This document shows positions 23,715 to 49,616 of a DNA stretch of 63,184 nucleotides, piece by piece. The notes beneath the pieces are model-generated. The model worked only from the letters and a program-made list of their open reading frames with translations. It searched no databases and had not been told where the DNA came from. Every line of letters starts with the position of its first letter. Positions within the stretch are counted from its first letter, which is position 1. Origin of the DNA: a bacterium (GTDB taxonomy: Bacteria; SM23-81; DAOVCL01); NCBI GenBank assembly GCA_029932675.1, contig JAOZPP010000009.1:1-63184 (forward strand). Direction: 5' to 3'. The translations under genes were made by a program, and so were the position numbers.

Positions 23715-23729
23715 TTCCTCCCCTCCTGG

Positions 23730-27550: not shown

Positions 27551-27673
27551 GAGACTCTCTTTCTTTTGTCCTCGGTTACGCTGAGGGCCAGCGTCACTTC
27601 GCCTATCCGGAGGTAAGCGTCTCCATTGTTACTCCGCCTAAATTCGCTTGCCCAGTTTGCTTATCCACCGCCC

Positions 27674-29808: not shown

Positions 29809-29815
29809 TTTTCGT

Positions 29816-29913
29816 CCTCCTTTTAAGTTTTTGTGGCTTAACCTCTATTGGTTACGACCACTCTACCTTGGGCCTGCGGCCCAGCGACCTATTCGGTTCT
29901 CTCACCTCCTTTT
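29816..29913 (-). promoter_or_regulatory. Flagellin leader with two CsrA-type sites
   Basis: The sequence AAAAGGAGG occurs twice in the leader, once at its 5' end (29913-29905) and once as the Shine-Dalgarno (29824-29816). A hairpin GGGCC-TGC-GGCCC (29870-29882) lies between them. Two GGA sites, one over the ribosome binding site, is the arrangement by which CsrA represses flagellin (hag) translation in Bacillus; csrA and its antagonist fliW are encoded in this locus. Confidence 0.6.
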
Positions 29914-29924
29914 CTTTTGTTATA

Positions 29925-29952
29925 TTATCGGCAGGAGGGGGGGAAAACTTTA
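29925..29952 (-). promoter_or_regulatory. Sigma-28 promoter of fliC
   Basis: On the minus strand TAAAGTTT, 12 bases (mostly C), GCCGATAA. Both boxes are perfect, but the spacer is one base longer than at flgM. It lies about 117 bases before the flagellin start codon. Confidence 0.85.
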
Positions 29953-30088: not shown

Positions 30089-31846
30089 TCAAAGATCAAT
30101 CCTCTCCTTCAGGGCAGAGAGGTTGCTTTTAGCCTCATCTAAGTCCGGTTTTAAGCTAAGGGAAACATCAAAGGAGATTGCCGCCTCCGCTATCTTCTCG
30201 TCCTTAAGTAGGGCCTCCCCAAATCTATTGAAGGCTAAAGCCAGGGCATACACATCCTGAACCTTATGGGGGAGGGGGGGAGCCAACTTAGGGTATTTAG
30301 CAGCGATATCCGCATATTCGTTGAAAAGGTTGGGTATAGATCTCTCCTGGGCATATATTTTCGCCAGGCCAAGGCTTATATCTATCCTCCCCGGTCTCAA
30401 CCCCTTCACCTGGAGAAAGACCCTCTTCGCCCGTGGATAATCGTTTGCGCTCAGGTAGAGGTATCCTAAATTGGTTAAGGCCTCCACCTGATTGGGATCT
30501 ATCTCAAGGAGCTTCTTGTAACTTATCTCCGCCTGACGGATTTTTCCTTCTTTAGTATAGACATAAGCCAGCCTCAGGAGGGCCTCCCTGAAGTGAGGGG
30601 CAAATTTGATTGCTTTTTTCAATGCCTTCTCCGCCCCTTGCAGATCACCCAAGAGTATCTTGGCCATCCCCAAGTCGAAGTAATCGGCAGGGGAGTTTGA
30701 ACCCCAAGCGGCCAGTTTTTGATAGCACTCCTGAGCCCGGAGATAATTGCCATTTCTGAGGAATAGCTCACCCAAGGACCGCAGGGCGGGGGTGGAGCCT
30801 GGCTTGATGCGGAGGGCTTCTTCATATTCCTTACTCGCCTCCTTAACCCTCCCCTCCCTCTCATAACATTTTGCCAGGTAGAAGGAGTTAAAGTAGCGTA
30901 GTTCCCCTAAGGGGAGGGAAGCCAAACCAAGCTTTATCCCTTTCCTCTTCACCTCCTCAAAGTTTCCCTTTGCCTCAGCCAATCTCCCTAATTTATAGTG
31001 AAGTTCCCCCAGACAGTAGTTGGGTAGACCATCTTCAGGGTCAATCTTCCCGGCATCTTGATATTGCTGGAAGGCAAGGTTAAATTTCCCTAACTTTCGA
31101 TAGTTATTCCCCAAAATTATATGGGCCATTTTAGTGATCTCCGGAAAATCAGGGTTAGATTTAGCGATCCCTAAAAGTTCCGTCAACTCCCTTACCGCTT
31201 CTTTAACCATCCCTTTGGCATTATAGTTGGTGGCCAGTTGATACCTAATCGCCATGTCCTCAGGATTCCTCTCCACCTGTTTCTGTAGAATCCTCAGGTT
31301 TCGCTCCACCTTCCTCCTGTATTCCTCTGGGTGGGAATACCCAAGATGATTTATCCGCACCCCGGTGGTTACAGGCCTCAGCCCTAACCTATCCAGGGAA
31401 TAGGCCACCTGTTCGTGGACTGGATTCTCAAACCTTACTCCAGGAAGGTTGGGAAAACACCTAAGCTGAAGGAACTCAGTCCTCATCCCATTGAATTCGG
31501 TGGAAACCACCTGACAAAGAAAGTAGCAATTGGGGGGAGAGGATTTCGCTAAGCCCTTTAACTTAAGGGCTTCTCTGCTCTCCAATCGGTCGTCGGCATC
31601 CATCCAGAAGATCCAGTCCCCAGTGGCATGGCTCAGGGAGAAGTTTCTGGCCTCAGCGAAATCGTCCCTCCAGGGGAAGTGAAAAACCTTTGCCCCCAAC
31701 CGGCGGGCAATCCTCACCGTGCCATCCCGGGAACCGGTATCCACGACTACAATCTCATCGAAGATGCCCTTGACCGGGAGGAGGCAACCGGCCAAATTCT
31801 CCTCCTCATCCCTAACGATCATACAGAGGGAGATCTTTGGTTTCAT
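30089..31846 (-). CDS. Family 2 glycosyltransferase with TPR repeats
   Basis: A 585-residue protein. Residues 1-220 are a GT2 (GT-A) catalytic domain: ISLCMIVRDEEENLAGCLLP, VVVDTGSRDGTVRIAR, FPWRDDFAEARNFSLSHA and WMDADDRL, holding the nucleotide-binding DxD-type motif. Residues about 225-580 are tandem TPR repeats (e.g. EALTNLGYLYLSANDYPRAK). No signal peptide or membrane segment, so it works in the cytoplasm, where TPRs may present protein acceptors such as flagellin. Its ATG overlaps the previous stop by 4 bases. Closely related to the gene at 32902. Confidence 0.9.
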   Translation of the reverse strand: MKPKISLCMIVRDEEENLAGCLLPVKGIFDEIVVVDTGSRDGTVRIARRLGAKVFHFPWRDDFAEARNFSLSHATGDWIFWMDADDRLESREALKLKGLAKSSPPNCYFLCQVVSTEFNGMRTEFLQLRCFPNLPGVRFENPVHEQVAYSLDRLGLRPVTTGVRINHLGYSHPEEYRRKVERNLRILQKQVERNPEDMAIRYQLATNYNAKGMVKEAVRELTELLGIAKSNPDFPEITKMAHIILGNNYRKLGKFNLAFQQYQDAGKIDPEDGLPNYCLGELHYKLGRLAEAKGNFEEVKRKGIKLGLASLPLGELRYFNSFYLAKCYEREGRVKEASKEYEEALRIKPGSTPALRSLGELFLRNGNYLRAQECYQKLAAWGSNSPADYFDLGMAKILLGDLQGAEKALKKAIKFAPHFREALLRLAYVYTKEGKIRQAEISYKKLLEIDPNQVEALTNLGYLYLSANDYPRAKRVFLQVKGLRPGRIDISLGLAKIYAQERSIPNLFNEYADIAAKYPKLAPPLPHKVQDVYALALAFNRFGEALLKDEKIAEAAISFDVSLSLKPDLDEAKSNLSALKERIDL

Positions 31847-32844
31847 AGGGTTACCATCTCCTCTTGGGCTTTATGGTTATACTCAACCAGTGTTTCTTTA
31901 ACCGCTTTATGCCAGCTTTTCACAAAATCCTGGAGAGAGAACCTCTCCAATACCGTCTTCCTGGCATTCCTCCCCAGCTTGATGGCCTCCCCCCGATCTT
32001 CCAAAAGGAACTTTACCCTTTCCCTCAGATAACCGAGATCATCGGAGATGAACCCATTGTAGCCATCAATGACCGGGGAGGTGGGGTGCCTGGTGCTCAC
32101 CACAGGCATACCGGTAGCCATAGCCTCTAAAGTGGCCAGGTTGTACCCATCCTCCAATCCCTCTCGGTTGGTGACCAAGAAGAGCCGATAGCGACGGTAC
32201 ATCCCCTTCAAAGCCTCCCAGCTTTGGGCAGGCTTTGCCCCAGGAAGGGAGGGGTTAATGCCGACGACATCCGAGGGCAGGCCCTGGAGGATCTCCTCTT
32301 GGATGAAAAAACCCAAAAGGGGATCTCTCTCCTTCAGATAATTTGCCACCCGGAGAACCTTAGGGATCTCTCCAGAGTAGCCACAACACTCCTGGGTTGG
32401 CGCAGAGAGCTTAATTACCTCCCCCTTCATCCCCCAGTCCCTCCGTTTTAAGGAGGAGACGAATACAGGCTTTACCCTCCAATAGGCATGAAGCCTTGCT
32501 ACCATTCGGCGAAAGCTGTTGTAGTCGATAGCACTTCCCTCCTCGACTATCCTCCCCCGCAGGGTGTTGTGAAAGATGGACATCTTCGGTAGGGAGTAGT
32601 CCCTAATATCCAATAGATCCTGGTTATTGTGACATATGGCCAAGTCGTAAAGTCCCACCCCTAAGTTCTCCTTGGCCTCATCAAGACCCAAAAGCCTGCA
32701 CCCTGGGGGCAGGGGCCTTACCCGCGGCAGCCAACGCAGCTTTCCCCCATACCGAGCATTGGATTCTACTATGTCTATGGGGCCGAAGGCTTTAGCCAAA
32801 AGATAAACGTAGGCTTGATGAGAATTAAAGGTCAATATCTTCAT
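31843..32844 (-). CDS. Family 4-type glycosyltransferase
   Basis: A 333-residue GT-B enzyme. The N-terminal half is divergent (MKILTFNSHQAYVYLLAKAF). The C-terminal half carries the GT4 donor-site signature NREGLEDGYNLATLEAMATG, MPVVSTRHPTSPVIDGYNG, with the E-x7-E pair, then LGRNARKTVLERFSLQDFV. It lies between two GT2-TPR genes with 4-base overlap to the next and probably adds one sugar of the flagellar glycan. Donor unknown. Confidence 0.85.
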   Translation of the reverse strand: MKILTFNSHQAYVYLLAKAFGPIDIVESNARYGGKLRWLPRVRPLPPGCRLLGLDEAKENLGVGLYDLAICHNNQDLLDIRDYSLPKMSIFHNTLRGRIVEEGSAIDYNSFRRMVARLHAYWRVKPVFVSSLKRRDWGMKGEVIKLSAPTQECCGYSGEIPKVLRVANYLKERDPLLGFFIQEEILQGLPSDVVGINPSLPGAKPAQSWEALKGMYRRYRLFLVTNREGLEDGYNLATLEAMATGMPVVSTRHPTSPVIDGYNGFISDDLGYLRERVKFLLEDRGEAIKLGRNARKTVLERFSLQDFVKSWHKAVKETLVEYNHKAQEEMVTL

Positions 32845-32901
32845 CTCTTGAATTGGGAACTTTGCCCTTGGATATAGGGGCCCTGCTGGTGCAAGCCAAG
32901 T

Positions 32902-34053
32902 TTATTCCCCATCCCTAATTACTTGAGCCATCTGGATGGACCTCTCGATCAGGGGTATGGCTTCCTCCTTTCTGTTCCCTTTAAGGAACAGCTTACCCAA
33001 CCTATAATATGGCACAAAGGAATCTGGCTTCTGGGCAATACACCTTTGGTAGGCATCTATCGCTTGAGGGATCTGACCCGTCTCTTCATAGCAGATGCCT
33101 AACCAATAGTCGGTCTTCACCTTCATCAAGGATAGGGGAAGGGGGAGGCTAAGGGCATTGAGACCACCCTTCTTTACTTCCTCAAGATAGGGCAAGGCCT
33201 GAGGGTAATCCTTTCTGAGACAGAGCAGTTCAGCCAGGTAGAACTTGGCCGGCCAGAAATCCCCTTTCCTCTGCAGGGCGCTGCGCAGGGTATCGATGGA
33301 TTTAACATCCTCCCCCAACTTGCAGTAGAGTTTAGCTCTTAGGAGATGGGCGTAGAGGAAAAGATCCTCGGAAAAGGTGGGAAACCTGGAGTCTTCTAAG
33401 AGCTCCCTGGTTAGCTCTAAGGCCCTCTGGGGTTCGCCTAAGGAGTCATAGGTTAAGGCCAGTTGGAACCTTGAGTAGAAATCGTCTTGGTTTTCGGCCA
33501 GCCATTTCTTCAGGATCTTCAAGTCCCTGAGGTCCTTTTTCCGCTTCCTCTCCCCCAGCATATAGCCAAGATGGTGGATGATGATCTCCTGGCGCTCGAC
33601 CCCTACCCCCAAGCTGCGCAGTGTTCCCTCCACCTGCTCGTGGATTGCACCTTCAAACTTGACCCCGGGAAGTTTAGGAAATAGCCTTAATTGATAAAAC
33701 TCTTCACCAGTCCCTTGATTGATCACCCGAAAGGAGAAAGCATTTCTCCCCCCTGGTCCGGCCAGTTCCCTTATCCTGCGACCCTCCTTAGGGTCGATCC
33801 GATCATCGGCATCCATCCAGAGGATCCAATCCCCCTGAGCATAGTTCAAGGAAGCGTTTCTGGCCGCAGAGAAATCATCTCGCCAAGGGAAATAGAAGAC
33901 CTTTGCTCCCATCTCCTTGGCCAATCGAGGAGTGCGGTCCCTGGAACCCGTGTCCACAACTATTAGCTCGTCGCAAACCTGGCGTAAAGGGAGAAGACAG
34001 TCCCGGAGGTTTGTCTCCTCATCCCTAACTATCATACAGAGAGAAAGGCTCAT
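32902..34053 (-). CDS. Family 2 glycosyltransferase with TPR repeats
   Basis: A 383-residue protein with the same plan as 30089-31846 but shorter. GT2 motifs are SLCMIVRDEETNLRDCLLPL, VVDTGSRDRTPRLAKEMGA, FPWRDDFSAARNASLNYAQG and WMDADDRI. TPR helices occupy residues about 215-375. The start overlaps the giant glycosyltransferase gene by 4 bases. Shared motifs show that this and the 585-residue protein arose by duplication. Confidence 0.9.
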   Translation of the reverse strand: MSLSLCMIVRDEETNLRDCLLPLRQVCDELIVVDTGSRDRTPRLAKEMGAKVFYFPWRDDFSAARNASLNYAQGDWILWMDADDRIDPKEGRRIRELAGPGGRNAFSFRVINQGTGEEFYQLRLFPKLPGVKFEGAIHEQVEGTLRSLGVGVERQEIIIHHLGYMLGERKRKKDLRDLKILKKWLAENQDDFYSRFQLALTYDSLGEPQRALELTRELLEDSRFPTFSEDLFLYAHLLRAKLYCKLGEDVKSIDTLRSALQRKGDFWPAKFYLAELLCLRKDYPQALPYLEEVKKGGLNALSLPLPLSLMKVKTDYWLGICYEETGQIPQAIDAYQRCIAQKPDSFVPYYRLGKLFLKGNRKEEAIPLIERSIQMAQVIRDGE

Positions 34054-37000
34054 CCCCCAAGCTCCTGCAGCCTCTTCTCCGCCTCTTTTAGCTCGGGATC
34101 GAGGGAAAGGGCAAGTTCAAACTCCTTCTTCGCCAGATCCCTCCTCTCCATATGGAAGTAACAGTCTCCCAAACAGAGGTGGACATCAGCATCGGGAGAC
34201 TGGAGACCTGAATACCTCTCTAAGAGCCCTGCCGCCTCTTCATACATCCCCACCTGATAGCAGATAAGGGCTAAGTTCAAGATCGTATCTGGGTCCTCTG
34301 GCGCTATCTGGAGAGCCCCTTGCAGATGATTCAAAGCCTCCTCCAAGTCCCCCTCTTGCCAGAAGACAACCCCCAGATCACTTTGGATTTGGACATTCGT
34401 TGGATCCAATTCCAGCCCTTTCTGGAGGACAGACCTTGCCTCTTCCATCCTCTCCGTCCTGAAAAGACACTCCCCTAATGACTGAAGATTCTCCACTGAC
34501 CATGGTTCCATCTCGGTCAACCTGCGATACAAGGGGATGGCTTCCTCAAACCTATTGACCTCTAAGAGCAGGGCTCCCAACTTCTTTAAGGCTTCCTGGT
34601 TATATGGGTTATTCTTCAATGACTTTTGATAAAACCTCTCCGCCAACTCATTCTCCCCTGCCTCCCGATGTTGATCTCCCATCCTCATAAATTCTATAGC
34701 CTTTCTTTCCCTCAGAACTGACATTCTCAACCCCCCTTCTTTTCTTAAAATCGGCTTACCTTTTAAATCAGATAACCTCTTCAAAATCAACTCCACTGAC
34801 CTATCCCAACCCAAGATTTCCCTCACCTTCTCCGCAGACTCCAGGCCCCTCTTCCTTGCCTCTTCTTGCTGAGAATAAATCTCCCTTAACCTCTGGGCGA
34901 GCACTTCAGTGGATGGTTCTAACACCCAGGGCTTCCCTGCCGTTTTTAATTTCACCTTGATCCCCCTCCTCTGGGAGGGAACCCAGTAGACACATTCTGA
35001 GGGGCAGAACTCATCACAGGGCCCCCCTTTGGTGACTATTACGGGCAGACCACAGGCAAGGGCCTCCGCCACCGGGAGACCGAAACCTTCCCCCCTATAG
35101 GGGTGGACAAGACAGTTGCAGGCGGTATAGAGGCCAGCCATTTTATCCTCCGGGAGGATATCCTTTAGATAGAGTATCTCCGGAGCATCCTTATCCTTTT
35201 GTATCTCTTTAATTAGCTCTCCCGCCCCCTGACCTCGATAGAAACTATCCTGTCCCATATCCTTAATTACCAAGCAGACATCATCCTGAGCGGTAAAGCT
35301 CTGACGATAAGCTTCTAAGAGGATGTCTATCCCCTTTCTCCAAATGGTTCCCCCCACAAAGAGGAATTTAAACCTCTTCTTCGTCCTGAGCTTCCAGGGG
35401 GGGGCCTGGGGGTTAAAGAGATCAAAGTTTACCCCATTGGGAATAACAAATATCTTTCCGGGGTTAACCCCACTTTGGATGTAACAACTCCTCACGAATT
35501 GGCTGGGCACCCATAACTCGTCAACCATTGTATTTATGGGTTCGACCCAATCCTGAGGGATGGCTCCATATTCCCAGGGTTGGATCATCACCCAGTGTCC
35601 TTCTGGTGGCGGATTGAAGTTTGGCGGCCACTGGTGACGGAGATGCACATCGGCAGGCCTGGAGAGGGGCGCCTTTACCCTCGCAGCAAGCCTGGCAAAA
35701 CGGGGATCAACCTCTGGACTGAATTGATCTGGCTCATAGGGAGTAAGCGAGAGCTCAACATTATCCCGCTCTAACAGGCGAAGGCTCAGTTCCCTGTTGA
35801 TCAGGGCTAAAGAGTGATGAATAAATAGGGATCCTTCCCATCGGATGGCAATAGGTTGATGGGTTGTTGGGCGATGACTGATAACTTCCAGGCGCTGTAA
35901 TACCAAGCTGGCAGCGTTATCCCAACCCCATTTCTCTACTACATCCTGCCGTGCTTGACGTCCCTTCTCGGAGGAGGATTTGCGGTTGGCAAAAACATAG
36001 CGCATGAGATCCCGCAGATGCTCCGCCGAGGGCTGGGCCCAACGATGCCCTCGATAAAAGGGGAACTCCATTCGGTCGTCTACCTTCACTAACCCCTCGA
36101 TATCCACTAAGTAAGAATTCGAATCGTTCATAAAAGCCATGTTGCCCCCCCAGCGGGTGCCAATGGTGGGCAGGCCACAGGCCATTGCTTCGATATATGG
36201 GCGGCCCCAACCCTCCCCTCGCGAGGGCATTACATAGGCATCAGCCGCCGCATAAAGCCTGGGCATATCCTGCTGGGGAACCTGAGTGCCCATCACGATA
36301 ATAGGAGCAACGGCATCACGGGAGAGCCCCAACTCACTCTCCAGAAAGTGATTTATACGCGACTCAACTTGGACTTGAACATCGGGCTTATCAGTAACGT
36401 TTGGTAGGTATGTGCGTAGAATAAGACAGACATCGTCATCAGGCGTAAAAGCTTTAGCCCATGCCCTTAAGAGGATGTCCCAGCCCTTACGATGAATCCA
36501 TTCAAAAACGGAGAGGAAAGCAAACCTACGCCGACCAGGAATGGGTAAAGGTGTCAGACCAGGCCGGAACAAGTCCGTATCCACCCCCTCGGGCACAGCG
36601 TAGATGGGGACAGTAACTCCTGCTTTTTGGAATGTCTCCACATTGAAGATGGTTGGAACCCATATTTCATTCATTTCGTTACATTTAGCAACCCAATCTC
36701 CAGGGAGACTGTCCGTTTCAAAGACCGTGCGTCCAATGGCATATATCGCTTTGGGATCGCGTCGGAAGGCATAAGCAGGGGCCTGAATGATCTGAATATA
36801 GCTTTCCTTAAGGGGGGTGTTCATAAGGCGAGTAAAGAGATCACGCTCACTGTCGACCATTTGGCTCAGAAATACCTCCGAGCTTCGGCCTATGGCCTCA
36901 ACCTTCACCTTCCATTTCCTTGAAATATGGCGGATAAGGTGCCGGGCGTCATCAGCGTAACCACTGGGGTCGAAGACCGGTGCCTGCCAAAGAAGAGCGT

Positions 37001-39482: not shown

Positions 39483-40550
39483 CTATAGTTTAACTCCTGG
39501 AATATCGGCTTTGGAATGGATAGCAAATCGATGAAGGACCACAGGATCACGAGACTCTAAGGCCAGCGCCCATTCGAAAGCCTTCCTGGCCTCTTCAGGT
39601 CGACCCACCTGACGCAGATGTTCGGCGATAATCCCCATCAGGTTAGCCGAGTCCGGCAAAGGGCTCTGTAATATAGGATCTATCAATTTACCATGAATAA
39701 GCGAAAGGTCTTTGAGGGCCAAAATGAAACCTGAGATTGCCGGAGCAGTTCTGGGCATTTCGATGGGCGCATTATTATAATAGAAAGCTGAAGAATGCAT
39801 CCGCAAACGGAAGGTATAATAGTCCCTCCAAAAGTGTATCTGCTCTCCACGGGTAAGATAAGGGAGGTATGTCTTACAAATTTCCAACCACTCCTTAGCC
39901 TTCACTACATAAGGAGTCTTGCTCTTACCGCCGGATCGATAGATCATCGCTTTGGCAAGCACTTGGTCTAAATAGAGAAATGAATATCCTTTAGCTGCCG
40001 TCCGAAGCCAATATTCATAATCCACCCCATATTGGAGATCCTCTCGAAAAAAACCTACATCGCGAAAGACTTTTTTGGTGAAGAAAATAGAAGGTTGAAA
40101 AAGATCCAATCTGAACCATCGAGTAAGTGTTACTAAGTTCAGCGGTACATAAGGGATAGCCCAATTTGTTGGTATCCCTTTTTCATCAATAAAGACAGTC
40201 TTTCCATAGACCAAATCGCTCTTTGGATTGGAGCACATTACCTCCACGACCTTCTGAAAGGTACCATCCACATAACAATCATCTGCATTGAGCCAACCGA
40301 TAATATCCCCACTCACCATTCGTAAGCCCTTATTTAATGCCTCAGCTTCCCCTCGGTCTGGCTCCGAAATCCATTTAAGATGAGGATATCGCTTTAGGAT
40401 TTCAACCGTCCCGTCGGTAGAGGCCCCGTCTACAACGATATGCTCAAAATTATCGTAACCTTGGGCTAAAACGCTTTCAATACACTCTCGCACAAATGCA
40501 GCGCAGTTGTATGATGGTGTCACGACAGAGAATTTAGGCTTGGTTCCCAC
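39483..40550 (-). CDS. Family 2 glycosyltransferase
   Basis: A 355-residue GT2 enzyme: KFSVVTPSYNCAAFVRECIE, VVDGASTDGTVEILKRYPHL, GEAEALNKGLRMVSGDIIGW and LNADDCY. It is highly similar to the GT2 module of the giant protein directly downstream (both have SEPDRGEAEALNKGLRM), so one arose from the other. A longer frame reaches a TTG at 40628 inside the upstream gene, but GTG 40550 places the catalytic domain at the N-terminus as usual and overlaps the upstream gene by only 17 bases. Confidence 0.87.
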   Translation of the reverse strand: MGTKPKFSVVTPSYNCAAFVRECIESVLAQGYDNFEHIVVDGASTDGTVEILKRYPHLKWISEPDRGEAEALNKGLRMVSGDIIGWLNADDCYVDGTFQKVVEVMCSNPKSDLVYGKTVFIDEKGIPTNWAIPYVPLNLVTLTRWFRLDLFQPSIFFTKKVFRDVGFFREDLQYGVDYEYWLRTAAKGYSFLYLDQVLAKAMIYRSGGKSKTPYVVKAKEWLEICKTYLPYLTRGEQIHFWRDYYTFRLRMHSSAFYYNNAPIEMPRTAPAISGFILALKDLSLIHGKLIDPILQSPLPDSANLMGIIAEHLRQVGRPEEARKAFEWALALESRDPVVLHRFAIHSKADIPGVKL

Positions 40551-42381
40551 CCTCTCTTCCCTCTTGGCTGACTTTTTGTATTTCGTGTAAATGTTGAATG
40601 GCGGCGATATTCGTCGGCTGCAATTCAACTGCCCGTTCTAAGTCGACCCGTGATCGATCTAACTCCCCAAGTTGGTGCAACAAAATGCCCCGGTAGAACC
40701 TCACTGAGGGTTCATCATACCCATATTCCAAAGCACGATCATATTGCTGGAGAGCTAACCTAAGATCCAGTTGCCCAAAGTGCAGGCACTGAGCTTTCAG
40801 ATAATGCCATTCTGGGTCGGCGGGGAGCTCACCAGAGAAACGCTGAAATAGAAGCAGAGCCGCTGCATACTGGTTCCGTTGCATCGATTCGCGTGCGTCA
40901 ACTTTAATTGTCTGACGAAGATGTTGAGCTGCATCTTGATGAGTTGGCCGCAGTTCCAGTGCCCTTTCCAAATCTGTACGAGAGGCATCAATGTCCTTTA
41001 GTTCCCGCAGTAGGATGCCACGATAGAATCGCACCCAAAACTCGTCGAAGCCGAACCTGAGGGCCAGGCTGTAGTTAATATGAGCCTGCTGCAGTTCTGT
41101 GCCCTGTTCGTGCAACACCCGTGCCTTAAGATAGTGCCACTCGGGGTCATTCGGATATTCGCCAGGGAAACGTTCCAGTAAAGATAGCGCTTCAGGCCAT
41201 TCCTTGCGCTCCATTGCCCTGCCTATCATAATCTTCAGTATCTCCCTTAATTCCTGAGATGCCCTTTCGTCCTCCGGCCGTAAGCTAACGGCAAGTTGCA
41301 ATTCTTCGCATGATGCCTTTAGGTCTCCCTTCTCCCGGAGATGAACCCCCCGGTTATAGTGCATCCAGAACCCACCCAAGTCTTGGACCTCTTTTCCCCT
41401 AAGTACGCTATCCAAGTGGCTAAGTAGCTTCTGAGCACCTTTATGGCGGGGATGGAGCCTTAATTCCACCTGGGCTGCCTTTCGTGCCTCCTCAAAACGT
41501 CCCAGATGGAATAAGGTCAAACTGCGTTGATAATTAAGGCCTTCGACATCGCCCAACCTCTTCCGTGCTTCGTCAAAGAGGTAAATCGCATATTCAAGGG
41601 TCAAGGAGCTGACTGTTCCTTCAGCAAGGGCTTGTTCCCGAGCTTGAATACCCACCTTAATGAGCTCGCCCTCGTCATAAGGAGGTGTAAGAGGTGGTTT
41701 CGGTGGTTGTTCATCACCATAGGTGAGGACAAAGTGAAAACTGGGTGACCCCTGTAGCGGACCACGTATCCAATCATGGCCAAAGTAATCGACCAACTGC
41801 GGATGGTTCCTGAAACCACCCCGGTGGAAGAAATCCTCCCACCAGTCTTTATCCTCTACTGTTTGGTGATAGTCTATCTTCCCCACCCTGTCCTGGAAAT
41901 CAGCGACACTCATAATCCAAAGCCCCCCTGGGCGGAGGTGACGGATGACATTATCGCAGACCCTTTGCAGATCCTCTTTCCGGATATGCTCCATTACCTC
42001 CCAAGCGGTGACTACATCAAACCTCGCATTGGCTTCCTCGCCGGAAATGAGGTCCCGACATTTTACCTGGAAGTCGGCGGCGATATCACAGGTGAAGAGG
42101 TTATCGGGGATCTTGGGCCATTCGGCTCGGGCAGTTTTCCTACTGTAATCGCTCCCCTCGAGGCCAATGGCGAGATGCCCGTCATCCAAGCAGTCCCTAA
42201 CAAACGCCCCTCCTGCACATCCCAAGTCAAGGATATATAGGGGCTTATGGTCAAAGAGTGCATATAACTTCTTGTTGAACAACGGGTTCCGGCTGTTGTC
42301 CTGTTTTGTCCCATGGGGAACCAGATGATCCGGTGAATCCACCGCAACTGGTTTCTCTGTGTTTAAGGTAAACTTAAGCAT
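40534..42381 (-). CDS. SAM-dependent methyltransferase with TPR repeats
   Basis: A 615-residue two-part protein. Residues about 40-230 form a class I methyltransferase: ILDLGCAGGAFVRDC (motif I, SAM binding), GLEGSDYSRKTAR, FDVVTAWEVMEHI and LRPGGLWIMSVADF. Residues about 260-610 are TPR repeats (LFHLGRFEEARKAAQVELRL, VRFYRGILLRELKDIDASRT). The same TPR fusion is used by its glycosyltransferase neighbours, which argues for a shared protein substrate. It may methylate a sugar of the glycan or the protein itself. Confidence 0.85.
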   Translation of the reverse strand: MLKFTLNTEKPVAVDSPDHLVPHGTKQDNSRNPLFNKKLYALFDHKPLYILDLGCAGGAFVRDCLDDGHLAIGLEGSDYSRKTARAEWPKIPDNLFTCDIAADFQVKCRDLISGEEANARFDVVTAWEVMEHIRKEDLQRVCDNVIRHLRPGGLWIMSVADFQDRVGKIDYHQTVEDKDWWEDFFHRGGFRNHPQLVDYFGHDWIRGPLQGSPSFHFVLTYGDEQPPKPPLTPPYDEGELIKVGIQAREQALAEGTVSSLTLEYAIYLFDEARKRLGDVEGLNYQRSLTLFHLGRFEEARKAAQVELRLHPRHKGAQKLLSHLDSVLRGKEVQDLGGFWMHYNRGVHLREKGDLKASCEELQLAVSLRPEDERASQELREILKIMIGRAMERKEWPEALSLLERFPGEYPNDPEWHYLKARVLHEQGTELQQAHINYSLALRFGFDEFWVRFYRGILLRELKDIDASRTDLERALELRPTHQDAAQHLRQTIKVDARESMQRNQYAAALLLFQRFSGELPADPEWHYLKAQCLHFGQLDLRLALQQYDRALEYGYDEPSVRFYRGILLHQLGELDRSRVDLERAVELQPTNIAAIQHLHEIQKVSQEGREGGNQA

Positions 42382-42441
42382 AAGGTCTCATAGGTGAGGC
42401 ATTCATTGTAATAAAGCCCTTATATTCCCCAAAGGGAGTAA

Positions 42442-43491
42442 CTAATGGTTTCCTTCAGGCAATTCGAGTTGACATAAGCTATAGAGATTGGCTAACTGCC
42501 GAAGGTTATTTAATCTGACAAGGAGTCGATCCAACTGTTTAAGTTTCTTGGGAATACACAAAATATCGGTATAGCCGTATGTTCTGTTATAGATAGAATC
42601 AACATAATTCGTCAAAGTACTCGGTTCGATCTCCACCAATTGCGTTGGTTGGATGGCGTAGAATATATCAAAGAGAAGGAAGTGCGCAAATAATTCCGAA
42701 AAGAGGTTCCCTATTAACTCTTGTTTTTCAAAGCGGGAGGGAGTGAATTCAAAGGTGAGGATTACAATCCGATCAAGAAGGATGTCCTTAATATTTTGGA
42801 TTATTTGGGGCTCCAAACCCTCAACATCGAGCTTAATGACTAAGGCACCCTCTATCCGACTTTTGGTGATGTATTCGTGTAAAGCAATAGAATCAACTAA
42901 GTAGCTGAGAGAGCCTTTTAGGTGATCCGAAAAGATGTTGTCACTATCAGAATAACCGGGTTTGTGATAGAGGATAGCCGGTCCCGAAATGTCTGAAATG
43001 GCAATTCTTTCAAAATGGGCCACCCCTCCCAGTCTGTTAACTCGGATATTTGGGGGGACAAGCTCCGCCGTGCGTCCAATATCAAAGAGAACAACCTCCC
43101 CGGGTCGACCAGAATACCTTATCAGATTAGCCAGGCGCAAACCAAATAGACCGATGTGGCAACCTACATCCAGAACGGTCACTTTAAACCCATTATCCCA
43201 AAGGTGATTAAGGATGTGGAAGAAGAGGTGATTCACACTATTACCAATCAAAGGCTTGGGCAACCTCTTTGCATCAAGTAGGTAGTCGCGAATAGATTGG
43301 TTCTTCTTTGAATCGGGAACGAAGCGATCATATAAGTTATCGTTTTTCAACATAAACAACTTTATGTCACCAAAATCTACAAAATCCACCTGACCTTGAT
43401 TTTGCATCAGTTCAATTTTGGAAACCCCCTCTCTCACTTCATCAAGCTCCGATTCAAGCCTTTGGATTCTTTCCAAAATAGTCTCATCCAT
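42442..43491 (-). CDS. FkbM-family methyltransferase
   Basis: A 349-residue protein. An N-terminal coiled coil (ERIQRLESELDEVREGVSKI) precedes an FkbM methyltransferase domain: VLDVGCHIGLFGLRLANLI (SAM site), VVLFDIGRTAEL, and the FkbM hallmark LVIKLDVEGLEPQIIQNIKD followed by ILTFEFTP. FkbM enzymes O-methylate sugars or polyketides. Within this operon a sugar O-methyltransferase is most likely. ATG 43491 lies behind GGAGGAAAG. Confidence 0.87.
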   Translation of the reverse strand: MDETILERIQRLESELDEVREGVSKIELMQNQGQVDFVDFGDIKLFMLKNDNLYDRFVPDSKKNQSIRDYLLDAKRLPKPLIGNSVNHLFFHILNHLWDNGFKVTVLDVGCHIGLFGLRLANLIRYSGRPGEVVLFDIGRTAELVPPNIRVNRLGGVAHFERIAISDISGPAILYHKPGYSDSDNIFSDHLKGSLSYLVDSIALHEYITKSRIEGALVIKLDVEGLEPQIIQNIKDILLDRIVILTFEFTPSRFEKQELIGNLFSELFAHFLLFDIFYAIQPTQLVEIEPSTLTNYVDSIYNRTYGYTDILCIPKKLKQLDRLLVRLNNLRQLANLYSLCQLELPEGNH

Positions 43492-43508
43492 CGAGATATC
43501 TTTCCTCC

Positions 43509-44498
43509 TTAGGGTTTATAAAAGATCAGGCGAGAGCCATGGTTTTCGAGCCCAAACCTGACCTCTCGCATATCAGAAAGTGCCCGTCGAACTCCAGGTT
43601 GGTTATAAGGCTCCACGTATAATAGCAGGAAACCTCCTCCCCCAGCACCAAGCAATTTCCCTCCGATAGCTCCTGCCCGGCGGGCACGCTCGTATGCTTC
43701 ATCTATCAGGCTATTACTGATAGCCTTAGAAAACTTACGCTTTAGTAGCCACCCCTGATGAAGGATCTCTCCAAAGTTGGAAAGATCATAACCATTGCAT
43801 AACATCTCTATCCCCTGGGGCACAAGTTCCTTCAATTTATTCAGATGGGGAGTAATCTCACCCGCCTTTGTGCGGGAAATCTGCTCCTCTAACACCTGAT
43901 GAGCGCTTCGCTGTAACCCTGTATAAAATATCATCAAACGCTCCTCAAGGGCCCGCTTACGCTCCTTAGAAATCACCACCGGTTTGAGGGTAACCTGGTT
44001 GCCGGCTTGAAATTCCAGATGTAACAAGCCGCCATGGGCGCAGATATATTGATCTTGGACCCCAACCCTCTCTTTGATCATCTCCCGATCAACATACACG
44101 GCCTCAGCGGCCAGTTGCTCCTGACTGACCATCTCCCCTTTAAAGGCGTGGAGCGCATTTAGCAATCCCACGGTAAAGGAGGATGAGGAACCCAATCCAG
44201 TGCGGGCAGGAAGATCGCTGACCGCAACTATTTCAATTCCCCCCTCTATTCCCATAAATCGGAGGCATTCACGCACTGAGGGATGTTGAATATCATCTAC
44301 ACATTTAACCAGTTCTGTCCGCGAGTAACTAACTCGAATGCGATGGTCAAAGAACTCAGTCAAGGGACTAACTGTAATGTAGATGTACTTATCTATTGAT
44401 GTTCCCAGCGCAGCCCCACCATGCTGGTTGAAGTGTTCCGGATAATCGGTCCCCCCGCCAATGAAGCTGACCCGGACTGGTGTCATACTAATTATCAT
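43509..44498 (-). CDS. hddA: D-glycero-D-manno-heptose 7-phosphate kinase
   Basis: A 329-residue GHMP kinase: PVRVSFIGGGTDYPEHFNQH at the N-terminus, the ATP motif DLPARTGLGSSSSFTVGLLN, and GAIGGKLLGAGGGGFLLLYV near the end. The FIGGGTDYPE opening with a downstream GmhB and nucleotidyltransferase is typical of HddA in the GDP-D-glycero-alpha-D-manno-heptose pathway, where it phosphorylates C1. The family also includes related sugar kinases, but the hddA-gmhB-hddC set supports this call. Confidence 0.88.
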   Translation of the reverse strand: MIISMTPVRVSFIGGGTDYPEHFNQHGGAALGTSIDKYIYITVSPLTEFFDHRIRVSYSRTELVKCVDDIQHPSVRECLRFMGIEGGIEIVAVSDLPARTGLGSSSSFTVGLLNALHAFKGEMVSQEQLAAEAVYVDREMIKERVGVQDQYICAHGGLLHLEFQAGNQVTLKPVVISKERKRALEERLMIFYTGLQRSAHQVLEEQISRTKAGEITPHLNKLKELVPQGIEMLCNGYDLSNFGEILHQGWLLKRKFSKAISNSLIDEAYERARRAGAIGGKLLGAGGGGFLLLYVEPYNQPGVRRALSDMREVRFGLENHGSRLIFYKP

Positions 44499-44510
44499 CG
44501 CTGGTTCTCC

Positions 44511-45443
44511 CTAAGATATCTTCTCTCCACACAACGCGGCCTGCTTTGATTGGAACCACTCAATTGTGGCCTTTAAACCGAATTTGAGCGACGTCAACTG
44601 CAGATCAGGGATGAGGCTCTTCAATTTCTCAATATTTAAACACTTTGAACGAGCCCCCACATAGCGCGAGCTATCAAACTGAATGGCATCATAGTCATAT
44701 CCGACCAGTTCACAGATCAACTGCGCAAAGTGACGGATGGTGAACTCCTCTCCTGAACCGATATTAATCAGGTCGTTCTCCCGGGTATCGCTCAGAAGGA
44801 TAAGGATCTGCACGAAGTCATCTAAATAAACTACCTCCCGCTTCTGATATCCATCGCCCCAGAGAACCACGGGATCACCATACAACTTCCCCCGCAAGAT
44901 CTTCCTGATTAGGTCAAAAATGAAATGCATTTGCCGTCCATCCGTATGATAGCCTGGTCCATATAGGGTTGAGGGGATAATGTGCAGATAGTCCATCCCA
45001 AACTGTTGATGTAAAGCCAGGGAACCTACATATAACATCCGCTTAGTCATCCCATAAGCAAAGAGGTCATCTATTGGCCTTCCCAGGAGGTAGTTCTCTT
45101 CGACTAATTCATAGTCTGGCGCATAGGAGCAACTGGTACCCATGGAAATCAATTTTGCCTGTGGTTGATAGCGGTGCCACCAAGTAAGCACATTGGTATT
45201 GATCTGCTGGTTAATTATCCACTGTTCCCCTTGATGATGAAGGCAAAAATCTCCCGCCTGGGTCCAAGCGGCCAAGTGATAAATCCGATCATAAGTGAAA
45301 GAATTGTAGGCATTAAGGCTATCCTGCTTGGTTAGATCACAATTCTTAGAGCTCAGCTCAACGAGCTGATGCCCTTCCTTTTTGAGTTGACCACATAGGG
45401 CTTGACCGAGGAAACCGGTGGCCCCGGTAACAAGAATCCTCAT
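44511..45443 (-). CDS. NAD-dependent epimerase/dehydratase (GDP-sugar, GFS-like)
   Basis: A 310-residue extended short-chain dehydrogenase: ILVTGATGFLGQALCGQLKK (NAD(P) loop), YHLAAWTQAG, the Ser of SMGTSCSYAP and the YGMTKRM catalytic Tyr/Lys. IIPSTLYGPGYHTDGRQMHF and REVVYLDDFVQI recall GDP-fucose synthase and the epimerase/reductases of the 6-deoxyheptose pathway. Given hddA/hddC, it probably acts on a GDP-heptose; the exact reaction cannot be read from sequence. Confidence 0.85.
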   Translation of the reverse strand: MRILVTGATGFLGQALCGQLKKEGHQLVELSSKNCDLTKQDSLNAYNSFTYDRIYHLAAWTQAGDFCLHHQGEQWIINQQINTNVLTWWHRYQPQAKLISMGTSCSYAPDYELVEENYLLGRPIDDLFAYGMTKRMLYVGSLALHQQFGMDYLHIIPSTLYGPGYHTDGRQMHFIFDLIRKILRGKLYGDPVVLWGDGYQKREVVYLDDFVQILILLSDTRENDLINIGSGEEFTIRHFAQLICELVGYDYDAIQFDSSRYVGARSKCLNIEKLKSLIPDLQLTSLKFGLKATIEWFQSKQAALCGEKIS

Positions 45444-45445
45444 AG

Positions 45446-46648
45446 CTAAATTGGATTGGGGTTAACGGGAAAATAGAATTCAACCCCCTCTTTAATCAAT
45501 GATTGGTTATTCCTCAGAATTTCATCCTTGAAGTTCCAAGCCAGCACATAATAGATATCGGGTGGGACCTTCAGCTCCTGCTCCATAACAATGGGGATAT
45601 GCATCCCAGGAGAATATAGACTACGTCGCAGCTCATTCTTCTCCACCAGACAATCGATGAAACTTGTGCCAATACGGAAGTAATTGAGTAGGGTATTCCC
45701 CTTGGCAGGAGCTCCAAAACCAAAAATCGTCTTCCCCGCATCTTTTCGTGCCTTTAGATACTCCAGGTTCTCAACCTTCATCTTTTCTATACGTTTAGCA
45801 AACTGGAGATAGGTGGAGAGGTCATTGCTCTTTCGCTTCTCCTCCGCTTTTCGCATTGATTGCAGCCGTTTTGAGGGCGAATACCTTCCGGTGTGGGTTA
45901 CAAAGCCAATAATGGAACCGCCATGAATGGGGGAGAGGTAGGCATCGAACATCGACAGGCCATGGAGGTTAAGCAAAGCTTCAATGGTTTTTAGATTATA
46001 GTAAAGGAGATGTTCATGGTAAATCTGATCAAAAGCCATGTTTTCTACAATCCGTTTCATATAGAGAAACTGCACGACAAATACCCCATCTGGACGCAGT
46101 GCCTCACGGATACCATCAGTCACTGAATGTAATTCCTCCAAGTGAAAGAATACCCCGGCAGCGTTGATGATATGGAATTTGCGTCCTATGCGATGGGCTA
46201 AATCTAAATTAAAAAATTCGTTAATTGTCTCAATCCCAGATCGATTGGCAATCTTGGCTATGGTTTTTGAGGACTCCACCCCCAGGACATCATAGCCTAA
46301 AGCCTTAAAATGCTTCAGTTGGGTGCCATCATTAGAGCCAATGTCGAGGACGGCTTTAGATGTCTGGTTCCTAAAAAATCGCCTGTCCACCTCTTCAGCC
46401 ACCCTCTTGAAGTGATCATTAAGTGATCTTGTCACACCAGAGAGGTAGGTATGATCACCGAACATAACCTCCTTTGGCACCGTGTAATCGAGCTGAACTG
46501 TGTTACACCGATGGCAATAGACCAGGCGCAGGGGATAGTGTGGTTCGGTTCCTATCTCATCTTGGCGAAGGAAGTGGTTACACCAGGGTTGCATCCCCAG
46601 GTCAATGGCCAACTCTAAATCATTGGAATCACATACACGACAGTTCAT
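45446..46648 (-). CDS. Sugar C-methyltransferase (zinc-motif N-terminus)
   Basis: A 400-residue protein of the TylC3/NovU-type C-methyltransferase family. The N-terminus is a zinc site (CRVCDSNDLELAIDLG and VYCHRCNTVQLDY). The SAM domain has VLDIGSNDGTQLKHFKALGY and the family segment FHIINAAGVFFHLEELHSVT. The C-terminal domain starts KTIFGFGAPAKGNTLLNYFR. In deoxysugar pathways these add a methyl to a nucleotide-linked keto sugar carbon. Two bases separate it from the downstream epimerase. Confidence 0.88.
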   Translation of the reverse strand: MNCRVCDSNDLELAIDLGMQPWCNHFLRQDEIGTEPHYPLRLVYCHRCNTVQLDYTVPKEVMFGDHTYLSGVTRSLNDHFKRVAEEVDRRFFRNQTSKAVLDIGSNDGTQLKHFKALGYDVLGVESSKTIAKIANRSGIETINEFFNLDLAHRIGRKFHIINAAGVFFHLEELHSVTDGIREALRPDGVFVVQFLYMKRIVENMAFDQIYHEHLLYYNLKTIEALLNLHGLSMFDAYLSPIHGGSIIGFVTHTGRYSPSKRLQSMRKAEEKRKSNDLSTYLQFAKRIEKMKVENLEYLKARKDAGKTIFGFGAPAKGNTLLNYFRIGTSFIDCLVEKNELRRSLYSPGMHIPIVMEQELKVPPDIYYVLAWNFKDEILRNNQSLIKEGVEFYFPVNPNPI

Positions 46649-46674
46649 TTTATCCCTTTTGTTTTGAAATTAAC

Positions 46675-47229
46675 TCAAACAGGAAGCAAGTGCCCGATGA
46701 CTTGAGCAGCCTCCCCCAGGCCGTCTACTATATAGTTTGGGATAACCATAGGGTCAGTCCCAAATCGGGCTCCATAGCCCGTGCGCACAAGAAAGGTAGT
46801 GGCCCCTACCCTTTGCCCCAACTCAATATCACAGGGTTTATCACCAATAACAAAAGTGGCCCCTGGATCAAATCCCAGCTCCTGAGCCGCTTTCTCTAAC
46901 AGGCCTGGTTTGGGCTTACGGCATTGACAGTTCTCCTCTGGGAGGTGGGGACAGAAGTAGATCCCATCGAGGTGGACGCCCTCGCTGGCTAAAAGCTCCT
47001 CCATACGCTGATGAATGCTTTCCAAGATAGCTTGATCAAAGAACCCGCGACCAATCCCAGATTGGTTTGTGATCACAACCAAACCCAGGCCCATCCCTTT
47101 AAGCCGCCGCAAACCATCTGTCGCTCCCGGGATTAACTCCACAAGCTCAGGGTTGGAGAGATAGCCTCGTTCGACAATTATCGTGCCGTCCCTATCCAAG
47201 ACTGCGAATTGCCGTTGAGTCATCCCCAT
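46675..47229 (-). CDS. gmhB: D-glycero-D-manno-heptose 1,7-bisphosphate 7-phosphatase
   Basis: A 184-residue HAD phosphatase: FAVLDRDGTIIVERGYLS (DxD nucleophile), LVVITNQSGIGRGFF, the zinc loop CPHLPEENCQCRKP, and FVIGDKPCDIELGQRVGA. It removes the 7-phosphate made by the GmhA/HddA steps. ATG 47229 is 5 bases after AAGGAGATC-type ribosome binding sequence and overlaps hddC by 10 bases. GmhA, the isomerase needed upstream, is not in the window. Confidence 0.95.
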   Translation of the reverse strand: MGMTQRQFAVLDRDGTIIVERGYLSNPELVELIPGATDGLRRLKGMGLGLVVITNQSGIGRGFFDQAILESIHQRMEELLASEGVHLDGIYFCPHLPEENCQCRKPKPGLLEKAAQELGFDPGATFVIGDKPCDIELGQRVGATTFLVRTGYGARFGTDPMVIPNYIVDGLGEAAQVIGHLLPV

Positions 47230-47963
47230 GAGATCTCCTTGAAGAAACCGTCTGCTTTCGCATAGGCCTCCGGCGTACCAATATCCAGGAAGGGAGCCTG
47301 GCTTTTATAACCATAAAGCCCTTGACCGACCCAGGAAGGAAAAACATCCCTTTCCAAAGATCCTGCTCTTTGAGCTGTGGGGGTAAGCAACATTTCCCTA
47401 TTAAGCAGATAAACGCCTGCATTGATTAGACCAGGGCCCCTCTCGGAGCCTTTTTCATCAAAGCCCAGCACCAACCCTTCCTCATCCACCCACACTCGCC
47501 CATAGCGCCCCGTGTCCTCGGTTTCTGTAAGCACCAATGTAGCCTGGGCATCGCGATACTGATGCCACTGCCAGAGATCCTGGAGGTCCACCTGACAAAA
47601 GGAATCCCCGTTCATCACTAACACCCGATCAGACTTCAGGAGGGGAAGGGCCAATTGAAGGGCACCGGCTGTGCCCAACAGGGAGGACTCCTGGGAGTAG
47701 GTGAGGTGAAGGGAACCATACCGGCTGCCTAAAGCCTCTTCTACTTGCTCACCAAGCCACCCCGTGCACAAAACCACATCTCTAATCCCCACCGCAGCTA
47801 ACTGATCTAAGATATAGGCCAAAAATGGCCGTCCTCTTACATCAGCGAGAACCTTTGGCCTGTCGGCCACTACGGGGCGCAGTCGAATCCCCAAGCCACC
47901 GGCCAAGACCGCTGCAGTTACTTCGGCCAGACCACTGGAAGTGAATATATTCACACCACCCAT
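47220..47963 (-). CDS. hddC: Nucleotidyltransferase, probable heptose-1-phosphate guanylyltransferase
   Basis: A 247-residue sugar-nucleotide transferase: AAVLAGGLGIRLRPVVADRP (nucleotide loop), GRPFLAYILDQL, DVVLCTGWLGEQVEEALG, LVMNGDSFCQVDL (metal Asp) and INAGVYLLNREML. Its position with gmhB and hddA indicates HddC, making GDP-D-glycero-alpha-D-manno-heptose. An extra six residues before the conserved AAVLAGG start point to ATG 47963 or a slightly later start. Confidence 0.87.
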   Translation of the reverse strand: MGGVNIFTSSGLAEVTAAVLAGGLGIRLRPVVADRPKVLADVRGRPFLAYILDQLAAVGIRDVVLCTGWLGEQVEEALGSRYGSLHLTYSQESSLLGTAGALQLALPLLKSDRVLVMNGDSFCQVDLQDLWQWHQYRDAQATLVLTETEDTGRYGRVWVDEEGLVLGFDEKGSERGPGLINAGVYLLNREMLLTPTAQRAGSLERDVFPSWVGQGLYGYKSQAPFLDIGTPEAYAKADGFFKEISWG

Positions 47964-47965
47964 GA

Positions 47966-48904
47966 TCAGATGTTCTTAAAAGGTGAACCGACCATCATTT
48001 TGTATCCCTTCACCAGTTCCCTTATCCCCTCTTCCAGGGTGCGTCTTGCCTCGAAGCCTGCTTCCCGCAACCTGCGGTTGGAGACGATATAGTTTCGCCT
48101 ATCCGGATCTTCTCCCACCTCCGAGAAATGGACATAGAAATTGGGTATCTGTTCCTTAATCTTCAAAGCCAGTTCCTCCTTGGAAAGGTTGGCCGAATCA
48201 AGCCCTACATTGTATGGCCGACCCACCATCTGTGCTGAATTCTCAATGCAATGGATAAAACAGTCGGCCACATCCCTGATATGTATATAGTTGCGTTTAA
48301 AATCCTTCTCAAAGATGACGATATACCCGTCCGTAACTGCGGCATAGACGAAGTGATTGACTAAAAGGTCCAACCTCATCCGCGGGGAGATGCCAAAGAC
48401 GGTAGCCAACCTCAAGGTAATTACATTGGGCGACTCCAATAGCTCGGCCTCGGCCTCCACCTTGGTTCGACCGTAGAGGGAGACTGGTTCAAGAGGTGTT
48501 TCCTCCGTGCAGTAGAGATCACCACTCTTAGTACCATAACCACTGTTGGTAGTGGGAAAGAGAACTAACTGGCTGGGGCTTCGTAACCGATTGAGCATCC
48601 TTACCGCCTCCAAGTTGATCGACTGAGCCGTCCAGGGATCTCGATCGCACGCCGGGGCACCGACTATAGCAGCCAAGGGGATAAGCACATCGGCCCCTTT
48701 AACCAACCTCTTCATTAGCTCTTCTTCGCGCACATCTCCGAAGATGAATTCAAAGCGGGAAAGGGAACAGAGATGAAAGAGGCTCTTCTGCCTATACATC
48801 AGATTGTCGACAACCGTAACCCTATATCCAGCATCGAGCAACCCCTCACATAAGATCGAACCCAAGTATCCGGCGCCCCCGGTTACCAGTATATGCGCAG
48901 CCAT
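47966..48904 (-). CDS. NAD-dependent epimerase/dehydratase (extended SDR)
   Basis: A 312-residue SDR: ILVTGGAGYLGSILCEGLLD (NAD loop), VTVVDNLMYRQKSL, ADVLIPLAAIVGAPACDRDP, FPTTNSGYGTKSGD and catalytic LYGRTKVEAE. The HIRDVADCFIHC segment matches nucleotide-sugar epimerases/dehydratases. It probably converts the GDP-heptose or a related sugar nucleotide. ATG overlaps the csrA stop by one base, so its translation is coupled to the regulator gene. Confidence 0.85.
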   Translation of the reverse strand: MAAHILVTGGAGYLGSILCEGLLDAGYRVTVVDNLMYRQKSLFHLCSLSRFEFIFGDVREEELMKRLVKGADVLIPLAAIVGAPACDRDPWTAQSINLEAVRMLNRLRSPSQLVLFPTTNSGYGTKSGDLYCTEETPLEPVSLYGRTKVEAEAELLESPNVITLRLATVFGISPRMRLDLLVNHFVYAAVTDGYIVIFEKDFKRNYIHIRDVADCFIHCIENSAQMVGRPYNVGLDSANLSKEELALKIKEQIPNFYVHFSEVGEDPDRRNYIVSNRRLREAGFEARRTLEEGIRELVKGYKMMVGSPFKNI

Positions 48905-49161
48905 TAGCTATCTATTCCTTGAGCTTCTTTTTCTGCTTTAAACAGCTCAACCATCTCCTTCACCTTCCTCTCTGAAGTTGAGGCGGATCGGCGATTCTCT
49001 ATTTGCAGCAGATGGTAGTTCTCCTGTTTGAGTACCGGAGTATGGGGAGGAAGCTCCAAAAGGAATCTCACCTGAGCCTGACCAACCTCCAAAATCACAA
49101 TTTCGATCTGGCCACCAATCTGTACCTTATCCCCCGGTTTGACGATCAGATTGACTCTCAT
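48904..49161 (-). CDS. csrA: CsrA-like translational regulator, divergent
   Basis: An 85-residue CsrA homologue immediately after fliW (ATGA overlap). It aligns through KPGDKVQIGGQIEIVILEVG, QVRFLLELPPHTPVLKQENY and LLQIENRRSA. The two arginines that make the main RNA contacts in studied CsrA proteins, in the N-terminal TR-R motif and the VHREE motif, appear as Val and Lys (LIVKPG; VLKQE). One extra residue lies in the first strand. It may bind RNA weakly or differently, or act mainly with FliW. The C-terminal tail (residues 65-85) is longer than average. Confidence 0.82.
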   Translation of the reverse strand: MRVNLIVKPGDKVQIGGQIEIVILEVGQAQVRFLLELPPHTPVLKQENYHLLQIENRRSASTSERKVKEMVELFKAEKEAQGIDS

Positions 49162-49616
49162 CCTTCGGAGGGGGCCTTCTTGATCTTTTCGGAGATCGCC
49201 TTCATTAAGGGGTAGCGAAGGGGATAAGAGGATTTGGTCAGGACTACCTGTTTGGCCAGTCTCTTCTTGGGGTTGACCAGGATCGGCCCTTTGAGATTAG
49301 CCGTTGCCTTCCCATTCCCCAGTGTGACCAGACAATATACCTTTAGATCCTTTACTCCCTTGACCCCCAAGCTCCTCAGATCCTCTTTGGTTATCTCCGG
49401 TTGATAATTTGGATAGAAACTTCTTGGCTCAAGGAGGGGAAATTTAAGCTGCTTCTCCTCTAAGGAGAGGAGCCAGGTGAAGGGCTCATATTCTTTGAGC
49501 TTTAAGAGGAGGTAATTCTTGAAACCTTCAAATCCGATTAATCCCTGGGGGAAGGTGATCACCTTCCCCACCTCAGTCTTCTTCTTCTCCTTTAATCCAA
49601 TCATCTTCCTATGCAA
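49158..49616 (-). CDS. fliW: Flagellar assembly factor FliW
   Basis: FliW binds flagellin or CsrA alternately, coupling flagellin export to translation. The 152 residues include VITFPQGLIGFEGFKNYLLL, FTWLLSLEEKQLKFPLLEP and YCLVTLGNGKATANLKGPIL followed by VNPKKRLAKQVV, all typical. The start may be TTG 49616 or ATG 49604 (MIGLKEKKK); neither has ideal spacing to AGGAAG. It overlaps csrA by 4 bases. Confidence 0.93.
   Translation of the reverse strand: MHRKMIGLKEKKKTEVGKVITFPQGLIGFEGFKNYLLLKLKEYEPFTWLLSLEEKQLKFPLLEPRSFYPNYQPEITKEDLRSLGVKGVKDLKVYCLVTLGNGKATANLKGPILVNPKKRLAKQVVLTKSSYPLRYPLMKAISEKIKKAPSEG

Follow-up and report, generated by a model that had tools for sequence, protein, structure and literature searches.

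A gene island between fliW-csrA and the only flagellin gene of an SM23-81 bacterium encodes a predicted GDP-C-methyl heptose pathway

Results

Thirteen genes surrounded by flagellar genes

We studied a gene island on contig JAOZPP010000009.1 of a bacterium of the SM23-81 lineage (assembly GCA_029932675.1), whose 63,184 nucleotides are called the window below. The island consists of 13 open reading frames (ORFs), all on the minus strand at 30089-48904, which overlap or are separated by short gaps in the ORF list, and it is flanked by fliW-csrA on one side and by the sole flagellin gene of the genome on the other. An earlier note, made from the sequence alone, had described a flagellin glycosylation island built around a GDP-heptose pathway at this place. 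We recovered all of its 13 tightly packed ORFs, and annotation of the encoded proteins with Pfam and NCBIfam agreed with the gene types it had proposed: hddC, gmhB and hddA, two short-chain dehydrogenases/reductases (SDRs), a sugar C-methyltransferase (CMT), two other methyltransferases and five glycosyltransferase (GT) genes. In transcription order these are SDR1, HddC, GmhB, CMT, SDR2, HddA, an FkbM methyltransferase, a TPR-methyltransferase, a GT2, an 1810-aa transferase, GT2-TPR B, a group-1 GT and GT2-TPR A. This gene content is the part of our analysis that we hold with the highest certainty.

Upstream of the island lie a divergent csrA (48904..49161, minus strand; PF02599, 1e-8), fliW, which encodes a flagellar assembly factor (49158..49616, minus strand; PF02623, 2e-37), and an FlgF-like gene. 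The csrA stop codon and the SDR1 start codon share one base in the sequence TAATG, and the island may therefore be co-transcribed with fliW-csrA. Downstream are fliC, flaG, fliD, two fliS genes, an FlgN/FliT-like gene and flgM. The product of fliC (28984..29808, minus strand), the presumed acceptor, carries Flagellin_N and Flagellin_C domains and is encoded in a single copy; a distant match on contig C91, located amid a run of flg-type genes, was rejected as a second flagellin and read as FlgL.

Glycosyltransferase and sugar-nucleotide genes are contiguous and co-stranded with flagellin genes here, like the sugar-nucleotide, glycosyltransferase and methyltransferase genes found amid flagellin genes in the glycosylation islands of Geobacillus (PMC5109656), Enterobacteriaceae (PMC4875605) and Clostridium (PMC13317340). 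FkbM methyltransferases are common in those islands and one is present in ours, but heptose is unmentioned in the three papers.

A probable GDP-heptose supply

Three island genes are predicted to act in GDP-heptose synthesis: an HddA-type heptose-7-phosphate kinase of the GHMP family (43509..44498; HddA model, 9e-38), a GmhB-type heptose bisphosphate 7-phosphatase (46675..47229; PRK08942, 2e-51, 173.9 bits, with the cut-off at 178) and an HddC-type heptose-1-phosphate guanylyltransferase (47220..47963; NTP_transferase, 1e-30; HddC model, 2e-39). Since all three score under the NCBIfam equivalog cut-offs, their exact substrates are assigned from context. GmhA, which the earlier note had proposed to look for elsewhere in the genome, is encoded off the island on contig C5. 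HddA, GmhB, HddC and GmhA are thus all represented by best-matching types, although these score under the equivalog cut-offs. An ADP-heptose synthase domain is also encoded in the genome; the GDP branch thus looks dedicated, and heptose-7-phosphate is probably common to the ADP and GDP branches.

In NCBIfam, HddC is matched best by a model for mannose-1-phosphate guanylyltransferases. Along with the sub-threshold scores of HddA and HddC, this would suit a pathway in which HddC has that activity, the GHMP kinase acts on a hexose and a mannose derivative is the nucleotide sugar made. We regard this as very improbable: GmhB and SDR1 are both of heptose type, the solved structure nearest to HddA is a heptose-phosphate kinase (3k85, 4e-37), and many loci have GmhA either fused to the orthologous operon or close to it.

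Predicted oxidation at C4 and C-methylation

SDR1 (47966..48904) is 54% identical to PDB entry 6vo6 over 310 residues without gaps (E = 4e-109) and shares its TNSGYG and YGxxK motifs, while every other solved SDR matched at 5e-21 or worse. The PDB title of 6vo6, which we take to be Campylobacter Cj1427, reads only 'putative sugar-nucleotide epimerase/dehydratase'. This full-length, orthology-level similarity lets us assign SDR1 with good confidence as a putative Cj1427-type GDP-heptose C4-dehydrogenase. An enzyme of this type would oxidize C4 instead of carrying out a 4,6-dehydration, so a 4,6-dehydratase would not be needed and the C6 hydroxyl would be kept. The GDP-heptose dehydratase implied by the earlier note is consequently not expected, and the sugar should not be a 6-deoxy one; we rejected the 4,6-dehydratase route to a 6-deoxy-heptose, as neither SDR1 nor SDR2 is dehydratase-like.

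In the Campylobacter jejuni HS:2 capsule, GDP-manno-heptose is oxidized at C4 by Cj1427 and later reduced at C4, the two steps being separated in the Campylobacter pathways by the action of a cupin epimerase (PMC10680097). Our island resembles that system (Cj1427, Cj1430, Cj1428) in its HddA-GmhB-HddC genes and in its predicted C4 oxidation and later C4 reduction, and differs from it in having a C-methyltransferase in place of the cupin C3/C5 epimerase and in being a flagellar rather than a capsular locus (PMC10680097).

The C-methyltransferase, CMT (45446..46648), is a TylC3-family enzyme with Zn-binding Methyltransf_13, a SAM domain and Methyltransf_14, in which the catalytic Tyr-His-Glu-His (YHEH) motif is kept; it matches the solved TylC3 D-mycarose 3-C-methyltransferase (4rv9, 1e-71). 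The comparison was with solved relatives, which are C3 enzymes; a methyl group on C3 is most likely, with C5, the site used by enzymes such as NovU, possible. SDR2 (44511..45443) is similar to GDP-fucose synthase (GFS; 2e-30) and keeps both the Ser-Tyr-Lys triad and the Cys/His dyad in TSC, YGMTK and MHF motifs. We predict that it is a C4-reductase and possibly a C5-epimerase/reductase; the Campylobacter relatives DdahC and MlghC have no C3/C5 epimerase activity. C4 oxidation followed by C-methylation of a heptose is a prediction in which our confidence is good, and it is low for the methyl position, the stereochemistry and the order of the glycan.

The heptose operon and the CMT-SDR2 pair in other genomes

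A plain operon of SDR1-HddC-GmhB-HddA with a more distant SDR2 proved to be widespread, with representatives in Myxococcota, Thermodesulfobacteriota, Cyanobacteriota, Planctomycetota, Nitrospirota, Acidobacteriota and other groups. In a thermodesulfobacterial locus (L024) this operon contains a GmhB-GmhA fusion at 8685-9875, several further loci have GmhA no more than a few kilobases from SDR1, and at one locus (L134) GmhA, HddC, CMT and SDR2 are contiguous. Both the heptose operon and the CMT module are therefore tied to sedoheptulose-7-phosphate.

The C-methyltransferase has a narrower distribution. Of 386 genomes, drawn for the most part from across the domain, 3 had a CMT this close, the source genome being one of them; so did 21 of 234 genomes (~9%) of one phylum with mostly 1-2 Mb genomes, and an Omnitrophota contig (L072) encodes one with 72% identity. 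The genome sizes and the multiple GroEL copies of that phylum hint at Chlamydiota, although no genome scored above the cut-off of a chlamydial GroEL model. A search with protein P0003 in the phylum of genome G057 gave no match. CMT, SDR2, SDR1, HddA and HddC occur together in 15 of the 20 CMT loci that we read; in four others (L115, L123, L124 and L126) the contig ends near the cassette, and one locus (L120) has the CMT-SDR2 pair only. CMT and SDR2 are thus a conserved pair that is nearly always accompanied by heptose genes.

Such co-occurrence bears on whether CMT and SDR2 act on the heptose at all. The flagellin could be glycosylated by the island with a separate, unmethylated heptose residue, and CMT-SDR2 could use another 4-keto sugar, for example GDP-4-keto-6-deoxy-mannose, to make a virenose-like 6-deoxyhexose. 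TylC3 relatives do use 6-deoxyhexoses, and in the route proposed for GDP-virenose in Coxiella a GDP-4-keto sugar is likewise C-methylated by a TylC3-type enzyme and then reduced by one of GDP-fucose-synthase type, starting from a 4,6-dehydrated hexose and giving a 6-deoxy product for lipopolysaccharide, unlike what we predict here (PMC3539893). Two loci (L109 and L120) also have CMT-SDR2 with SDR1, HddA and HddC not nearby. Nevertheless, our island encodes no 4,6-dehydratase, and the pair keeps company with SDR1, HddA and HddC in three quarters of the loci and with GmhA-HddC in L134, so we consider this explanation unlikely.

Sequence comparison separated the two gene sets. The TSC/YGMTK/MHF-type motifs are conserved in every CMT-linked SDR2 sequence that spans them, in the forms TSC, Y(A/G)MTKR and (M/L)HF, and the SDR2 of the window is 52-66% identical to CMT-linked SDR2 proteins but mostly 25-34% to those of operons that lack CMT. 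In quick trees with many weak branches, SDR1 and HddC of the window grouped with CMT-less operons. CMT and SDR2 belong to the CMT group; SDR1 identity comparisons are biased, since the loci were retrieved using SDR1. The G+C content also differs, at 0.42-0.47 for CMT, SDR2 and FkbM against 0.51-0.54 for SDR1-HddC-GmhB. The island is therefore a mosaic, with the CMT-SDR2 pair set inside another, widespread heptose operon.

Flagellar placement of the GDP-heptose operon is occasional, as it was seen in 2 of 63 loci: in L024 the plain operon follows flgI-flgK-flgL-fliW, and in L074 SDR1 follows flgK-flgL, with matches to csrA and fliW. The earlier note had held that its reading would be refuted by relatives in which the cluster is found away from flagellar genes and next to O-antigen or capsule export genes. 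This test cuts both ways: cassette relatives do occur off flagellar genes, which makes the module a portable sugar supply with no inherent tie to flagella but does not show that our copy serves a different glycan. The three nearest available relatives of the source genome (G001, G002 and G003) gave no flagellin, SDR1 or CMT match; in this small sample motility and the island are jointly absent.

Glycosyltransferases, probable decorating enzymes and presumed acceptor

With four modules in the 1810-aa protein (34050..39482; GT4-GT2-GT4-GT4-TPR in Pfam), the five glycosyltransferase genes encode eight transferase domains in all. GT2-TPR A (30089..31846) and GT2-TPR B (32902..34053), which are 41% identical to each other, have an N-terminal GT2 domain followed by TPRs, and their top bacterial transferase match in the PDB is GmaR (22ao; 5e-29 and 3e-27, respectively), with SunS next. 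The remaining two genes encode a group-1 glycosyltransferase (31843..32844; PF13692, 6e-8) and a GT2 (39483..40628; PF00535, 8e-32) that is a paralogue, at 46%, of the GT2 module in the 1810-aa protein and whose true start is probably at about 40550. An FkbM-family methyltransferase (42442..43491; TIGR01444, above cut-off), with a probable role in glycan decoration, and a class-I methyltransferase with TPR repeats (40534..42381; Methyltransf_23, 4e-12) complete the island. The Maf domain PF01973 had no match across the whole genome.

The earlier note had called TPR-bearing transferases unusual for a flagellar glycan, a view that the precedents reverse. In Listeria GmaR, the GT domain that transfers N-acetylglucosamine to flagellin precedes the TPR domain, as in GT2-TPR A and B (PMC9638930), and flagellin is bound by the N-terminal TPR domain of FlmG (PMC7591256) and by the C-terminal TPR domain of Maf-1 (as cited in PMC13317340), two enzymes that differ from ours in their transferase folds and nonulosonic acid donors. 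A TPR transferase is thus an expected form for an enzyme acting on flagellin, and we have fair confidence in the predicted role of flagellin as the acceptor.

The sugars of the island could instead serve lipopolysaccharide or another surface polysaccharide, the adjacency to fliC being incidental. Lipid A genes lie within the same window, GDP-heptoses are known from capsules, and CMT cassettes elsewhere stand amid other glycan genes, the L072 cassette being beside a distantly PglB-like protein. Yet among the 13 island proteins Pfam detected no flippase, polymerase, ligase or exporter, which fits assembly in the cytoplasm, the GmaR-like enzymes are encoded within the island, and the SDR1 start overlaps the csrA stop of the fliW-csrA pair. 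The absence of genes for export and polymerisation led us to rate an O-antigen or capsule role lower, and we think it improbable that the island feeds a polysaccharide.

A proposed route and its standing

Our results favor a flagellin glycosylation island equipped to make its own sugar, a C-methyl heptose forming part of a longer chain on the flagellum, to which we assign a probability of roughly 0.6. In the proposed route, GmhA would isomerize sedoheptulose-7-phosphate and HddA, GmhB and HddC would act towards GDP-manno-heptose; SDR1 would oxidize C4 in the manner of Cj1427, its bound NAD being recycled by alpha-ketoglutarate, CMT would methylate a carbon adjoining the ketone, and SDR2 would reduce C4, perhaps after epimerisation at C5, to yield a GDP-C-methyl heptose with its C6 hydroxyl intact. 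The GmaR-like enzymes would dock on flagellin in the cytoplasm before export and begin the glycan on surface Ser/Thr residues, which the 1810-aa protein and the other two transferases would lengthen; its decoration would fall to the FkbM and TPR-bearing methyltransferases. We see about an even chance that the donor is specifically GDP-3-C-methyl-D-glycero-heptose, an undescribed nucleotide sugar made by a portable CMT-SDR2 module working on a Cj1427-type oxidation product and displayed as a flagellin glycan.

Several points weigh against this reading. The enzyme roles are predictions from sequence and gene context, HddA, HddC and GmhB score below the equivalog cut-offs, and the use of heptose as a donor by any island glycosyltransferase is presumed. 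Moreover, no flagellar genes were seen beside the CMT cassettes of other genomes, the nearest relatives lack flagellin and so offer no comparison of island gene order, and the lipopolysaccharide to which the lipid A genes belong could take the sugar. In outline, the interpretation of the earlier note is nonetheless supported: the island is backed by gene content, gene order and the GmaR-like enzymes, the GDP-heptose route by the HddA/GmhB/HddC-type genes, the Cj1427-like SDR1 and the GmhA-HddC-CMT-SDR2 linkage in L134, and the C-methylated heptose by a TylC3-type CMT paired with heptose genes in relatives; only its dehydratase and the supposed oddity of the TPR transferases fall away.

Flagellar glycans studied to date carry mainly nonulosonic acids, rhamnose/viosamine and hexosamines. 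In an open-access library with few subscription papers, our searches turned up neither a flagellin glycan derived from GDP-heptose nor a pathway to a C-methyl heptose, the nearest published chemistry being the route proposed for GDP-virenose (PMC3539893). Attachment would rely on machinery of a kind already known, but a C-methyl heptose on the flagellum would be new. If our reading is true, it would add a new class of flagellar sugar, and the combination of a Cj1427-type SDR, a TylC3-type CMT and a GFS-like SDR with the Cys/His dyad would be a signature predicting branched heptoses in several phyla. Should the donor be the 3-C-methyl sugar, the same CMT-SDR2 module would feed other surface glycans in Omnitrophota and in the small-genome phylum.

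Other features of the window

A sigma-28-type promoter that matches the consensus exactly precedes fliC (29925..29952, minus strand). The window contains three such exact matches against 0.04 expected; the other two, also on the minus strand, are at 9242-9267 and at 22895-22921, the latter just upstream of flgM. Within the fliC leader (29809-29925, minus strand) there are two AAAAGGAGG stretches, one of them at the ribosome-binding site, and together they look like a pair of CsrA sites with the ANGGA core, as would suit the adjacent csrA-fliW. Further downstream, the interval between flaG and fliD (26502-28324) encodes two proteins without a confident family, one of 288 aa that is weakly DivIC-like and one of 205 aa without matches, and the two fliS genes form a tandem pair at 23346-24113, each scoring above the FliS cut-off. 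Finally, positions 2071-4950, distant from the flagellar genes, encode an activator of 959 aa with TPR-GAF-sigma54 architecture, whose helix-turn-helix is of the Fis type.

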